Shown piece by piece: positions 13,310 to 17,655 of a DNA stretch of 64,000 nucleotides. The notes under the pieces were generated by a model, which ran no database searches, was not told where the DNA came from, and was given only the letters and a program-made list of their open reading frames with translations. Where the stretch lies: the NCBI GenBank assembly GCA_014727915.1, contig WJMO01000006.1:329882-393881 (forward strand). The letters are read 5' to 3'. The DNA is from Candidatus Altarchaeales archaeon. Lineage in GTDB: Archaea; Altiarchaeota; Altiarchaeia; IMC4; SCGC-AAA252-I15. Each line of letters opens with the position of its first letter. Positions within the stretch are counted from its first letter, which is position 1. The position numbers and the translations under genes were made by a program.

Positions 13310-13460
13310 TGGACTCGTCGGGATTTGAACCCGAGGCCTCCCGCGAACTCGGAACCTTTTACGGACACGGAATATTATTTTCCGTGAACGCTTTTACGGC
13401 CTGTAGGCCGGAAAAGGGTTCTTGCAAGGCGGACGATCTACCGGACTGATCTACGAGCCC
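13310..13460 (-). tRNA. tRNA-Ala(UGC) with a 77-nt intron
   Basis: Located in the 16S-23S spacer, the usual archaeal place for tRNA-Ala. The acceptor stem GGGCTCG/CGAGTCC contains the G3:U70 pair that specifies alanine; the anticodon loop CTTGCA carries UGC; T arm is TCGGGTTCAAATCCCGA. CCA is not encoded. The anticodon arm is split after position 37 by an intron (about 13346-13422) whose ends pair GAACC/GGTTC to make a bulge-helix-bulge, the substrate of the archaeal tRNA endonuclease. The intron closely resembles that of tRNA-His at 17187-17334. Confidence 0.95.
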
Positions 13461-13541
13461 CTGAATAAAGTTTCTTGGATTCACCCCAACGGGTTCCATG
13501 AATTTTTTGTGTTCAAGTCTTTTGCTGGAAGAATTTTAGCC

Positions 13542-13555
13542 CCTGTGCGCGGAAG
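13542..13555 (-). other. 16S processing stem, 3' arm
   Basis: Reads CTTCCGCGCACAGG on the minus strand and can pair, with G-U pairs, with CCTGTGTGTGGAAG at 15133-15146 upstream of 16S. Part of the stem from which pre-16S rRNA is excised. Confidence 0.65.
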
Positions 13556-13600
13556 GCAAATATTCCGCATTGTAAAAGAAGCAAACACATGTTGGTTTGC

Positions 13601-15093
13601 TTGGAGGTGATCCAGCCGCAGATTCCCCTACGGCTACCTTGTTACGACTTCACCCCCCTCGCGAACCCGAGATTCGACACACCCGAAAATCGAGTATGCC
13701 TCACCTCCAATCCACTCAGTTGGTGTGACGGGCGGTGTGTGCAAGGAACAGGGACATATTCACCGCTTTATGGTAAAAAGCGATTACTAGGGATTTCACC
13801 TTCATGAGGGTGAGTTTCAACCCTCAATCCGTACTGGGACATGGTTTAGGGGATTAGCTCCGCCTTTCGGTGTTGCAACCCATTGTCCATGCCATTGTAT
13901 GCCGCGTGTAGCCCAGACGATTCGGAGCATACAGACCTACCGTCGCCCGCGCCTTCCTCACACTCATCGCATGCAGTCCCCCTATAGTGCCCCACAAGTC
14001 TCCTCGTGGGTTGCAAATAGGGGTACGGGTCTCGCTCGTTAACGGACTTAACCGTACGCCTCACGGTACGAGCTGACGACGGCCATGCACTACCTCTCGG
14101 CTCGTTCGGCAAGACCTTTAGCCTGGCCTTCATCCTGCCGTCGCGTCTGGTAAGTTTCCCGGCGTTGTATCCAATTGAACCGCAGCATCCACCCCTTGTG
14201 GTGTTCCCCCGCCAATTCCTTTAAGTTTCAGCCTTGCGACCGTACTCCCCAGGTGGTGGGTTTAACGGTTTCCCTTCAGCACTCCCCGAACACGAGGTTC
14301 AGGGAACACTAAACCCACATCGTTTACGGCTAGGACTACCAGGGTATCTAATCCTGTTCGCTCCCCTAGCTCTCGTACCTCATCGTCAGGCCCGTTCCAG
14401 AGTGGCGCCTTCGCTACCGGTGGTCCTCCAGGGATTATAGCATTTCACCGCTACCCCCAGAATACCCCACTCCTGCCCCGGCCTCAAGCCCAGTAGTATT
14501 TTCTGCAAGCCCTACGGTTAAGCCGCAGGATTTCACAGAAAACTTGCTGAACCGACTACGCACGCTCTAAACCCAGTAAACGCGATCACCACTTGAGCTG
14601 CTGGTGTTACCGCGGAGGCTGGCACCAGTCTTACCCAGCCCTTATTCCCAGAGCTATTTACACTCTGTAAAAGCACACGTTGTACGTGCGCACTTGGGGT
14701 CCCCTCGTCACGCTTGCGCGCATTGCGAAGGTTTCGCGACTGCTGCGCTCCGTAGAGCCTGGACCTTTGTCTCAGTGTCCATCTCCCGGCTCCCACTCTC
14801 ATGGCCGGTACAGATCGTAGCCACGGTAGGCCATTACCCTACCGTCAAACTAATCCGCCGCAGACTCATCCTGAGGCGATGGACCGGATACAGGTCTTCT
14901 CCTTTGAGCGGCGGACATTCCAGTGCTCGCCGCCTATGGGGGATTGTCCTCAGTTTCCCGAGGTTATACCCCTCCCCAGGGCAGATTGTCCACGTGTTAC
15001 TGAGCTGGTTGCCCGGACCTTAACCGTGTCCGAAACGTGCATGTCTTAATCAAACCCCAATAGCAGTGACCTCGAGCAGGATCAACTCGAGTT
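13601..15093 (-). rRNA. 16S ribosomal RNA
   Basis: Small-subunit rRNA, about 1.49 kb, minus strand. The 5' end shows GTTGATCCTGC flanked by the helix-1 pair CTCGAG/CTCGAG instead of the common CCGG; the 3' end is GGCTGGATCACCTCC, whose anti-Shine-Dalgarno matches GGAGGTGA sites seen in front of several genes here. The universal 1390 and 1492 blocks are normal. The 530 loop is not: it reads CAGCCTCCGCGGTAA, with U in place of the G at E. coli position 524. Sites of common archaeal primers near 344, 915 and 958 also carry substitutions. No intron is apparent. Confidence 0.97.
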
Positions 15094-15132
15094 AATGTAC
15101 GTATCGCTGATTGTTTTTTGGAATTGTATGGT

Positions 15133-15146
15133 CTTCCACACACAGG
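15133..15146 (-). other. 16S processing stem, 5' arm
   Basis: Reads CCTGTGTGTGGAAG on the minus strand and pairs with 13542-13555, about 40 nt outside each end of 16S. Weaker complementarity continues toward the gene. Confidence 0.65.
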
Positions 15147-15377
15147 TATAGCTATTTCCAGCGTTTGAACACGTCAGACAGCCCCCATGCAGAGGATGTC
15201 ATCATAAATTGCCCACACTAGCATGGATCGGACTCCACGGAAGGTGCAGACGCCCAAACCGCTTCTAGGCCCAACAAAACCAGATGTGAGGCGATTCCAA
15301 ATCAACACTTTCCCGCATTTTGCGGGGTTGTCTCATTTAATTGGAAAAACACATTGCGCAAAGGGAATTTCGCGCGG

Positions 15378-15410
15378 ACAATATATAGGCAACCTCTATT
15401 TATAAATCAA
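15378..15410 (-). promoter_or_regulatory. Probable rRNA operon promoter
   Basis: Two TATA-like elements occur on the minus strand, TTTATAAATA (about 15399-15408) and CCTATATATTG (about 15380-15390), upstream of a leader of roughly 260-290 nt before 16S. The second is the better placed for a start near 15355. The leader itself (15094-15377) holds no gene that I can see. Confidence 0.5.
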
Positions 15411-16066
15411 CTGTAGATGCCGGATATCGTTCCGCTCGAGGTGAAATCGGCTTTTTTCTGTCCTCCGGCCGTTACCAGGAGTTCTCTGCGCTTTTTGTCC
15501 ACCATATCATCGATTTTCTCATCTGAAACGCCCATATTCCGGAAGGACTTGGCCTGGTCCAGGACCTTTGCATAATCAAGGGAACGCTGTGTCGCCGTAG
15601 ACTCCAGAACGACTTCCAACATGAATATCCTTCCCCTCATGTTGAGGTCTGGAGCGCAGTTAGATGCTGATATGTTCTTCCTCTCGCCCGCCCCAAGGTT
15701 GAAGGGCGTTTTAGTGATTAAGTCGCATCTTCCAGAGTCCCGGTTCCAAAGGCTTATTTTCCTCACGGTCGCCGTGTCCAAACCATAGTTGGCAACATTG
15801 AATGATAGTCTTCCAGTATCGCCGTCTATGGACGGCGAATCCGGAATCAGCACCTTCAGCGACTCTGCCACTTCTTCCTTGGGCTCCATAAGGCCTGAAA
15901 TGTAGTCGAAGACGCCAAGCCACCACATAAGTAGGATGAGAGTGACAAAGGTTATGACATAGTCCTTCTTAGAGGGTTGGACGTTCACCGGCAGACTGCC
16001 AATGGATCGGCTAGGCTGGCCTGTTTTATCGTCTGTTTTAGATTCAGCTTCGAGGTCAGGGGACAT
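15407..16066 (-). CDS. Membrane-anchored protein of a pilin-like operon, unknown
   Basis: A 219-residue protein with a polar N terminus (about 1-33), one transmembrane helix (about 36-56, rich in Trp, Leu and Val) and an outside domain. Residues 70-155 look beta-rich (GRLSFNVANYGLDTATVRKISLWN), like the immunoglobulin-type 'archaeal flagellin/pilin-associated' folds where a lone Cys pair could bond; the C-terminal third is helical and charged. It starts one base after the upstream class III prepilin stop, so the two are translated together, suggesting a shared surface structure. No family assignment. Confidence 0.75.
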   Translation of the reverse strand: MSPDLEAESKTDDKTGQPSRSIGSLPVNVQPSKKDYVITFVTLILLMWWLGVFDYISGLMEPKEEVAESLKVLIPDSPSIDGDTGRLSFNVANYGLDTATVRKISLWNRDSGRCDLITKTPFNLGAGERKNISASNCAPDLNMRGRIFMLEVVLESTATQRSLDYAKVLDQAKSFRNMGVSDEKIDDMVDKKRRELLVTAGGQKKADFTSSGTISGIYS

Positions 16067-16067
16067 T

Positions 16068-16742
16068 TTAAGTCCAGGTTATGATTCCCGTACTGTGCTC
16101 GACAGTCTGAACGTTACCAATCTTTAAAACATATTCTATGTCGATGTATGCGCTTCCCGGATGCCCTGAGCTTACATCCAGACATTTGTCATCCAAACCT
16201 TCGATGCCGCCGCCGCCAACTTTGATAGTGCCCTCCTGGGGGACCTCATAGTCTTCCACGCCATCGCCAGTATGGTCAACGCATTCGAACACTTGTGAGC
16301 CGTAGAGCCCACCAGGCGCGTAGTCACAGTCTACGATGCTACTATCTTGATAGTGGACTATCTTGCCCTTGTCCGTCTCAGCCAGGCCGTAACCGCATTT
16401 CAAATCATGTGATGTGGCTCCGCCGGTGGGGACCTCGGACTCAGGGGACATGCTGACACTGACGTTCTGCACGTACACTTTAGTGTTCAACGTGTTGGTG
16501 AATATGCACACCAGCCCCCTGTCAAGGGACCCGCCGCCCAGGGCGTTCTCGGTTATCCCGCAGGTGGAAAGCAAGGGCTTGAACGCGCCGGTGAAACCGG
16601 ATTCTGTGAAGTGGCCGCCGCCGCCGAAGTTGAATATCCCCAGCCGCCACATGGCAATGCCAGCGACCATCACAACGATAATAGCCCAGCCGTAGGTCAT
16701 CAGGTACTCCATAGCACCCTGACCCCTCCTATGAGAAAACAT
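16068..16742 (-). CDS. Class III signal-peptide (prepilin-like) protein
   Basis: A 224-residue protein starting MFSHRRGQGAMEYLMTYGW, a textbook archaeal class III prepilin leader: basic residues, G|QGAMEY cleavage box, then a hydrophobic helix (about residues 14-34). The mature domain has several cysteines (near residues 65, 83, 127, 143, 162, 199) and ends in a beta-rich GxIxW segment. It is larger than typical major pilins and may be a tip or minor subunit. The start at 16742 is supported by the conserved leader and by a TATA box (TTTTTATAAG on the minus strand, about 16774-16784); the open frame extends to 16955 without meaning. It is followed at once by the anchored protein gene. Confidence 0.87.
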   Translation of the reverse strand: MFSHRRGQGAMEYLMTYGWAIIVVMVAGIAMWRLGIFNFGGGGHFTESGFTGAFKPLLSTCGITENALGGGSLDRGLVCIFTNTLNTKVYVQNVSVSMSPESEVPTGGATSHDLKCGYGLAETDKGKIVHYQDSSIVDCDYAPGGLYGSQVFECVDHTGDGVEDYEVPQEGTIKVGGGGIEGLDDKCLDVSSGHPGSAYIDIEYVLKIGNVQTVEHSTGIITWT

Positions 16743-16786
16743 GGTAAATACAGTAACATATTGGACGAGAAAGCTTATAAAAACAG

Positions 16787-17186
16787 GTGGGCCGCGGGGG
16801 GCTACCGGCCCCCTCAGTTCCAAGTTCCTCCTGATCCCCCCGAAACGAATATTGTGCCGCCCAAAGGTGGCACAAATGCAGTAACCAGAATGAATCAATG
16901 ACGATTGGCTAGAAAAAAGTACAACCAATAATATTGGCCCAGCAAGGGCGAACATACCATGGTGGATAATTGATTCAACCAGACAATTAGATTTGTCAGA
17001 AATGCTCGAGCAATATACAATGAAGCCTCCAGCGACTCAAGCGATTATTGCTAAGTACCAACTAAATAGGATATGAAAAACCTCTTTTGAGGATAGCCTC
17101 TCAAATTTTATATCCATTTTGATAGTGCATTCTGGGGGGTCGTAGACCCCCCCATTTCGCTTCGCGTGTCCACGGAGCGAGCCGTG
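16787..17186. other. Intergenic stretch with several hairpins, no gene seen
   Basis: About 400 bp between the prepilin promoter and tRNA-His. It contains inverted repeats: a G/C-rich hairpin near 16797-16820, GTGCCGCC/GGTGGCAC at 16855-16874, the palindrome CCAATAATATTGG near 16925, CCTCTTTTGAGG near 17081, and the perfect G/C hairpin at 17134-17152. I found no tRNA, C/D box pair or convincing ORF. A small RNA is possible but not supported. Confidence 0.4.
17134..17152 (-). terminator. G/C hairpin downstream of tRNA-His
   Basis: A perfect stem of eight pairs (GGGGGGTC with GACCCCCC) and a 3-nt loop lies 35-50 nt past the 3' end of tRNA-His. It may end or protect the tRNA transcript; archaeal terminators usually depend on T-runs, which are not strong here. 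Confidence 0.35.
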
Positions 17187-17334
17187 GGCCGCGGGCGGAA
17201 TTTGAATCCGCGTCGCCGGATAGCTGCAACCTGTCGTATGCCCGGAATTATTATCTTCCGTCAACGCTTTCGCCCGGAGGGCGGAAGAGGGTTGCCACAG
17301 TCCAGTAGGATAACCAGGCTACCCCACCGCGGCC
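17187..17334 (-). tRNA. tRNA-His(GUG) with a 73-nt intron
   Basis: The extra 5' G (position -1) is encoded and faces C73, the histidine identity pair. Acceptor GCCGCGG/CCGCGGC, anticodon loop CTGTGGA with GUG, and T arm GCGGATTCAAATTCCGC are all regular. CCA is not encoded. An intron of about 73 nt (17222-17294) interrupts after position 37; its ends pair GCAACC/GGTTGC to form a bulge-helix-bulge. The intron is clearly similar in sequence and structure to that of tRNA-Ala at 13310-13460. A T-rich TATA-like element lies about 25 bp upstream. Confidence 0.94.
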
Positions 17335-17376
17335 ATAATGTGGGTATGTATTAGGGCCTTATTCGAATAAAAGGTT

Positions 17377-17655
17377 TTATTTCAGTATCTCAATCGCCTG
17401 TTCACCGAGCATCCCTTCTGTTATTCCGAGCTCTCTTGCCTTCGAAGTGCATGCTGCTATCTCTGCTTTCAGGACATCGGAAAAGGTGGACACACCTGTC
17501 ACTACCGCCGCGGCCTGACCTATCTCCTCCGCCTTCTTAAGGTTGAGCAGCCCGCACATTAGATAACCCCTTTCACCGACTACCAATATCATGTTGGCGC
17601 TGGGGAGTCGGGCCTTCAGTCCTAGACAGCCGTTTATTATGCGTGTCTCGATCAT
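17377..17655 (-). CDS. DUF1805 (YunC-like) protein
   Basis: A 92-residue single-domain protein of the DUF1805/YunC family, recognised by the pattern G-x-K-A-x-LP-x-x-N-x-I-L-V-x-G-x-x-G-YLMCGLLN (about residues 12-37) and the Ala-rich VVTGVSTFSDVL segment. The biochemical role is not established. Its ATG overlaps the stop of argB by 4 bp, so it is translationally coupled to arginine synthesis, which may be coincidental or may hint at a metabolite-binding role. Confidence 0.85.
   Translation of the reverse strand: MIETRIINGCLGLKARLPSANMILVVGERGYLMCGLLNLKKAEEIGQAAAVVTGVSTFSDVLKAEIAACTSKARELGITEGMLGEQAIEILK

Follow-up and report, generated by a model that had tools for sequence, protein, structure and literature searches.

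Introns of two tRNA genes in an Altarchaeales genome as probable copies of a small hairpin element dispersed in archaea

The window analysed here, a stretch of 64,000 nucleotides from contig WJMO01000006.1 of Candidatus Altarchaeales archaeon, belongs to a genome of 1.81 Mb in 13 contigs that is archaeal by its 16S and 23S rRNA. It contains two intron-interrupted tRNA genes, for alanine and histidine, and the intron of each carries a copy of a short hairpin core, termed E below (Table 1). The borders of both introns on the minus strand, first proposed from the letters of the window alone (the sequence-only reading), were confirmed. As read from the sequence, the exon–intron borders form a bulge-helix-bulge in both transcripts, CTTG[CA|A]GAACC...GGTTC-CGAG[TT|C] in Ala and CTGT[GG|C]AACC...GGTT-GCAG[CT|A] in His, and the same arrangement of a 4-bp central helix with two 3-nt bulges was recognized by eye in the Ala, His, Asn, Gly, Thr, Arg, and Met genes of the window's genome. 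The tRNA-His gene was overlooked by ARAGORN, as well as by Rfam at its gathering score. The core occurs twice in the 64-kb window, both times within these introns, against 0.11 occurrences expected.

Table 1. Intron-bearing tRNA genes, their introns and the E copies within them (positions in the window), with the introns of a second family found elsewhere in the genome
Feature	Position	Strand	Basis or remark
tRNA-Ala(UGC) gene, intron-interrupted, between 16S and 23S rRNA genes	13310..13460	-	Rfam tRNA match, 50.5 bits including the insert; anticodon read from sequence
Intron of tRNA-Ala, 77 nt, canonical position 37/38, full bulge-helix-bulge	13346..13422	-	Sequence reading; ARAGORN gives a 77-nt intron at 39 in the same gene (L023)
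E copy in Ala intron, GAA-CCC-TTTT..hairpin..AAAA-GCG-TTC-ACGGAAAAT	13377..13421	-	Pattern match; foot pairing
tRNA-His(GUG) gene, intron-interrupted; G-1 encoded at 17334	17187..17333	-	Read by eye from sequence
Intron of tRNA-His, 73 nt, canonical position 37/38, full bulge-helix-bulge	17222..17294	-	Sequence reading; alignment to Ala intron
E copy in His intron, CAA-CCC-TCTT..hairpin..AAA-GCG-TTG-ACGGAAGAT	17253..17294	-	Pattern match
Second-family introns, Arg(UCU) and two Met(CAU)	L007:1501-1652, L015:1501-1661, L022:2-195		CTTCACCCCCAAAG replaces GTTCACGGAAAA

The Ala and His introns are related to each other, with a local alignment score of 53 compared with 13.5 (standard deviation, SD, 2.3) for dinucleotide shuffles, none of 400 of which reached 53. 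A genome-wide search for tRNA genes and for the core added the introns of Asn(GUU), Gly(UCC), and Thr(GGU) to the same family, and each pair score among the five was reached by no more than 3 of 400 shuffles. Non-homologous tRNA genes of this genome thus share significantly similar introns, the pattern by which transposed tRNA introns are recognized, and the proposal that one intron had spread among unrelated tRNA genes is supported for at least five tRNAs. That part of the sequence-only reading stands; it needs widening in that the core is also dispersed outside tRNA genes, beside duplicated target DNA. Long introns of a second family occur in Arg(UCU) and in two Met(CAU) genes; they are closely related among themselves (z 12-24) and similar in layout to the first family, yet without a convincing alignment to it. 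The genome's other tRNA introns are shorter, at 18-52 nt, and the one that was compared gave no match.

The feature shared by the introns of the first family, NNN-CCC-TTTT(hairpin)AAAA-GCG-N'N'N'-RCGGAAAA, is about 30-55 bp long and consists of a hairpin with a 3-bp foot (NNN/N'N'N'), a CCC/GCG internal mismatch, and a TTTT/AAAA stem, followed by CGGAAAA and usually by a purine tract. When a 20-base piece of the core was used to scan public genomes, two archaeal matches were found outside tRNA introns, one after the stop codon of a permease gene (L034) and the other directly after tRNA-Leu (L032); 20-mer matches in Bacteroidales and Nitrosomonas were discounted as chance, a judgement made without L033. 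The pattern CCCTTTN{4,34}AAAGCGNNNNCGGAAA, with its reversed form as a control, retrieved 51 copies from 16 of the 24 genomes of the window's order, and the reversed control retrieved none. Copies were present in 17 of the 29 genomes searched in the window's phylum-level group, in 18 of 371 genomes of the phylum of the Nanoarchaeota match (one control match in total; the highest count, 26 copies, in a genome of 0.7 Mb), and in 4 of 23 genomes of a third phylum-level group; control patterns yielded almost nothing. E is therefore a multi-copy repeat, dispersed over unrelated sites in three archaeal phylum-level groups, and its distribution across them is patchy. A viral origin was rejected because, in viral contigs, an 18-mer of the core matched coding DNA by chance alone; a longer pattern matched two contigs, one of them with a flank-core-flank arrangement at a tRNA.

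Duplicated DNA accompanies part of the copies. Of 140 copies, 33 have a repeat of their upstream flank no more than 250 bp downstream of the core, whereas 1.4 are expected from swapped flanks. The duplicated flank ends 0-6 nt from NNN in 29 of these 33 cases and exactly at NNN in 17, giving E a sharp left edge at NNN, and the repeats are mostly about 20-80 bp long and sometimes diverged. At L244 a core of 30 bp lies between two repeats of 37 bp, and at L047 the duplication extends over at least 80 bp. With gene names taken from the sequence rather than from database matches, the flanks represent the end of guaA (L047), the starts of protein genes (L158 and L153), and the 5' ends of tRNA genes (L051, L121, and L152). 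In genome G028, both a tRNA-Pro site and the end of an Nre-like gene consist of flank, core, and repeated flank, and three congeners carry undisrupted versions of the two sites, each as a single uninterrupted copy. This difference between flank-core-flank and a single uninterrupted site reads as the footprint of insertion with duplication.

Two further arrangements of flank and core were seen. The 3' end of an Nre-like gene (L154:1495-1700) carries three tandem units of 71 bp, each made up of flank plus core. At L158:1501 and L213:709, the spacer that follows the core holds an inverted 9-11 nt copy of the upstream flank, so that a stem could close there; such inverted copies stand out at these two loci only.

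In the search pattern, the three bases 5' of CCC and the three bases 3' of GCG were left free, and their pairing in the foot can be judged across the family. Watson-Crick pairs occupy 288 of 309 foot positions in 103 copies, compared with 168 (SD 6.6; maximum 193) in 2000 shuffles, which ignore the relatedness of the copies. All four bases are seen at the outermost position, almost always with the matching partner. The pairing extends to all classes of copies, comprising 77 of 81 positions in introns, 88 of 90 in duplication-flanked copies, and 236 of 261 in the remainder. Common descent alone is an unlikely cause of this covariation because many distinct foot pairs occur (11 in duplication-flanked copies and 24 in the rest). 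The earlier suggestion that selection acts on a folded RNA thus gains support from the larger family, and the covariation of the apical hairpin, CGGCC/GGCCG in Ala and CGCCC/GGGCG in His, is real. A second helix, postulated as TTTTCC/GGAAAA in Ala and TCTTCC/GGAAGA in His, lacks generality: TTTTAC is found in Asn and Gly, the TTTT segment usually pairs with the AAAA located immediately 5' of GCG, and across the family the later purine tract follows the 5' strand in the parallel, not the antiparallel, sense. The C.C mismatch of CCC/GCG is also conserved, but it is largely fixed by the search pattern and hence weaker evidence. The parallel match between the purine tract after the foot and the pyrimidine strand has a mean run of 7.5 bases (up to 15), compared with 5.8 (SD 0.1) for swapped tracts, a comparison in which swapping ignores relatedness and the first bases are fixed by the pattern; it is suggestive of the geometry of a purine-motif triplex.

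When each copy was excised in silico from NNN to a variable end, a tRNA was recovered across the junction in 41 of 145 copies, compared with 5 in an E-free control, some of the 41 being duplication cases or neighbouring tRNAs. Under a stricter rule, 30 usable copies are intron-like, two of which are also duplication cases. The inserts in tRNA genes are located in the anticodon loop, in the D arm (Lys and Arg), and in the T arm (Leu, Glu, Ser, and others), and some tRNA genes carry two. Copies are also found within 23S rRNA genes (L104 and L145, both in the sense orientation, and L148), and the copy at L244 adjoins a 5S gene. The remaining copies are intergenic, often at the ends of genes, with further ones in protein genes and antisense to tRNAs. 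The sites are scattered and not common to close relatives.

Several of these loci have features of their own. In a relative (G020), one 23S rRNA gene holds an inserted cluster of E-like hairpins, three or four in number and lying in both orientations (L148:3450-3870), and the 23S rRNA gene with the copy at L145 also contains a group I intron (L145:1645-1842; Rfam RF00028, 73.5 bits). At L256 (genome G174, C3, about 17330-17470), the core end GGCTGGCGGAAAAC is repeated several times head to tail directly after a core copy. Four close copies in genome G417 (L218, L220, L222, and L224) share a second hairpin, CAATCGAAC..GTTCGATTG, 3' of the core, and all of them lie within about 300 bp of an oppositely oriented tRNA gene; they perhaps represent a longer, recently active form of E.

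Taken together, the introns of tRNA-Ala and tRNA-His in the window are probably copies of E, acting as a small non-autonomous mobile element whose insertions in tRNA genes have been kept as bulge-helix-bulge introns. E would insert in DNA and create a long target duplication, either by a staggered cut with fill-in or by template switching; the sharp left edge, the variable right edge, and the variable length of the duplication would fit both. Insertions at gene ends would be tolerated, as the duplication makes the gene whole again, and those within tRNA genes, possibly also rRNA genes, would survive if NNN-CCC together with sequence farther downstream folds into a bulge-helix-bulge, allowing removal by the archaeal tRNA splicing endonuclease. 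The Ala and His introns, as well as those of Asn, Gly, and Thr elsewhere in the genome, would be such retained copies, and E may still be active as a DNA-level transposon.

A number of observations weigh against this interpretation. About three quarters of the copies show no duplication, and the right edge and the length of the duplication are variable, unlike those of most DNA transposons. Bulge-helix-bulge pairing around free copies is hardly above that of swapped controls, and the copies come mostly from fragmented metagenome assemblies. In the window's own genome E is found in introns only, so its Ala and His introns may be long-standing residents. Searches for the moving enzyme, made for reverse transcriptase (PF00078) and for Y1 transposase (PF01797), did not identify one: the former had no match in the most copy-rich genomes, and the latter had none in the copy-rich genomes G197, G174, G261, G349, G013, G009, and G000. 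Neither enzyme tracks E, and both were rejected as its machinery. Integration of the Cas1 type, as in casposons or in a CRISPR-like manner, is disfavoured by the varying length of the duplication.

Instead of a mobile element, E might be a functional RNA or DNA motif, such as a binding site, a processing signal, or a terminator, that is kept by selection, with local template switching as the passive cause of its spread. In the Nanoarchaeota genome G025, the + strand of the contigs carries 14 of the 16 near-matches to the core, and many of them are placed after stop codons or immediately before start codons. Such a bias would suit a motif of this kind, as would the strong covariation of the foot in free copies too and the triplex that the parallel purine tract could form. 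However, sites that are scattered and unshared between close relatives, a sharp edge with a duplicated target, and insertions in 23S, tRNA, and protein genes are contrary to it, and we regard this explanation as unlikely.

A route through RNA appears improbable. In that case, excised introns would re-enter tRNA and other genes through reverse splicing, reverse transcription, and recombination, or gene conversion between tRNA genes would spread them, with the free copies arising as a side product. Such a route would agree with the left edge of E, which falls at the 5' splice site in the tRNA introns, and with the related introns in different tRNAs that are reported for Thermoproteales (PMC4033280). 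However, a reverse transcriptase domain was not found in the copy-rich genomes, the free copies are without intron 3' ends, and reverse splicing predicts none of the many copies in protein genes, at gene ends, antisense to tRNAs, and beside duplications of 20-80 bp. Convergence on a minimal splicing motif, by which the introns would be alike only through the need for a bulge-helix-bulge, can account for AACC/GGTT near the intron ends as part of the splicing helix, but it is refuted by the shuffle test and by the copies found across the order, with a shared core that lies away from the splice sites and at non-intron places and with no match in the other, shorter introns, and it is scarcely credible.

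As a mobile element, E has partial parallels in several known systems. Like the ends of repetitive extragenic palindromic (REP) and IS200-IS605 elements and like integron attC sites, it is a dispersed imperfect hairpin whose stem contains a mismatch and whose foot is paired; it differs from the REP and IS200-IS605 elements in having target duplications and no link to Y1 transposase. The attC sites have a conserved AAC/GTT core triplet in their R boxes, which is not kept in E, where CAG/CTG, GCA/TGC, CGG/CCG, and CCA/TGG feet are common. Archaeal integrons do exist, also in Nanoarchaeota (PMC9668308).

Closer to tRNA biology, the passage of PMC4033280 that cites Fujishima et al. 2010 presents similar introns in different tRNAs of Thermoproteales as large-scale intron transposition. 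As described there, those introns, like those with E, are similar across different tRNAs of one lineage, occupy canonical and non-canonical positions, and have a bulge-helix-bulge, whereas the E core is also present outside tRNA genes with duplicated flanks and in other archaeal groups; the likeness is one of description. In Caldiarchaeum, a mobile element has been linked to disruption of tRNA-Thr and intron gain, in a model that resembles E in the presence of a tRNA fragment beside a full tRNA and in tying intron gain to insertion; that element is 1.8 kb long with a recombinase gene, whereas E is a core of 30-55 bp without genes, at many sites (PMC3293823). Eukaryotic introners are likewise small transposable elements that have turned into introns, with target duplications in some families (PMC9860276), and E can be likened to them as a small mobile element becoming an intron, with target duplications in part. 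Introners depend on the spliceosome and have duplications of 3-9 bp, whereas E is archaeal, is presumably removed through a bulge-helix-bulge, has duplications of 20-80 bp, and shows no terminal inverted repeats. No description of an E-like element was found in the open-access literature.

In studies of how archaeal tRNA genes gain introns, related introns have been seen before in different tRNAs, with the gain event itself not visible. The present copies of the core outside tRNA genes, beside duplicated target DNA, and the undisrupted sites in relatives make intron gain directly testable. The arguments are evenly balanced for the broader proposal that E represents a new class of minimal archaeal mobile element, with a hairpin core of about 30-55 bp and long target duplications, moved by a host or trans-acting enzyme and repeatedly seeding bulge-helix-bulge introns of tRNA, perhaps also of rRNA, across phyla. 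The data suggest that one small element feeds introns to several positions of many tRNAs, as well as to 23S rRNA genes, and thereby suggest an origin for many archaeal tRNA introns. If this is true, E would be to archaea what introners are to eukaryotes and would serve as a source of tRNA introns in archaea.

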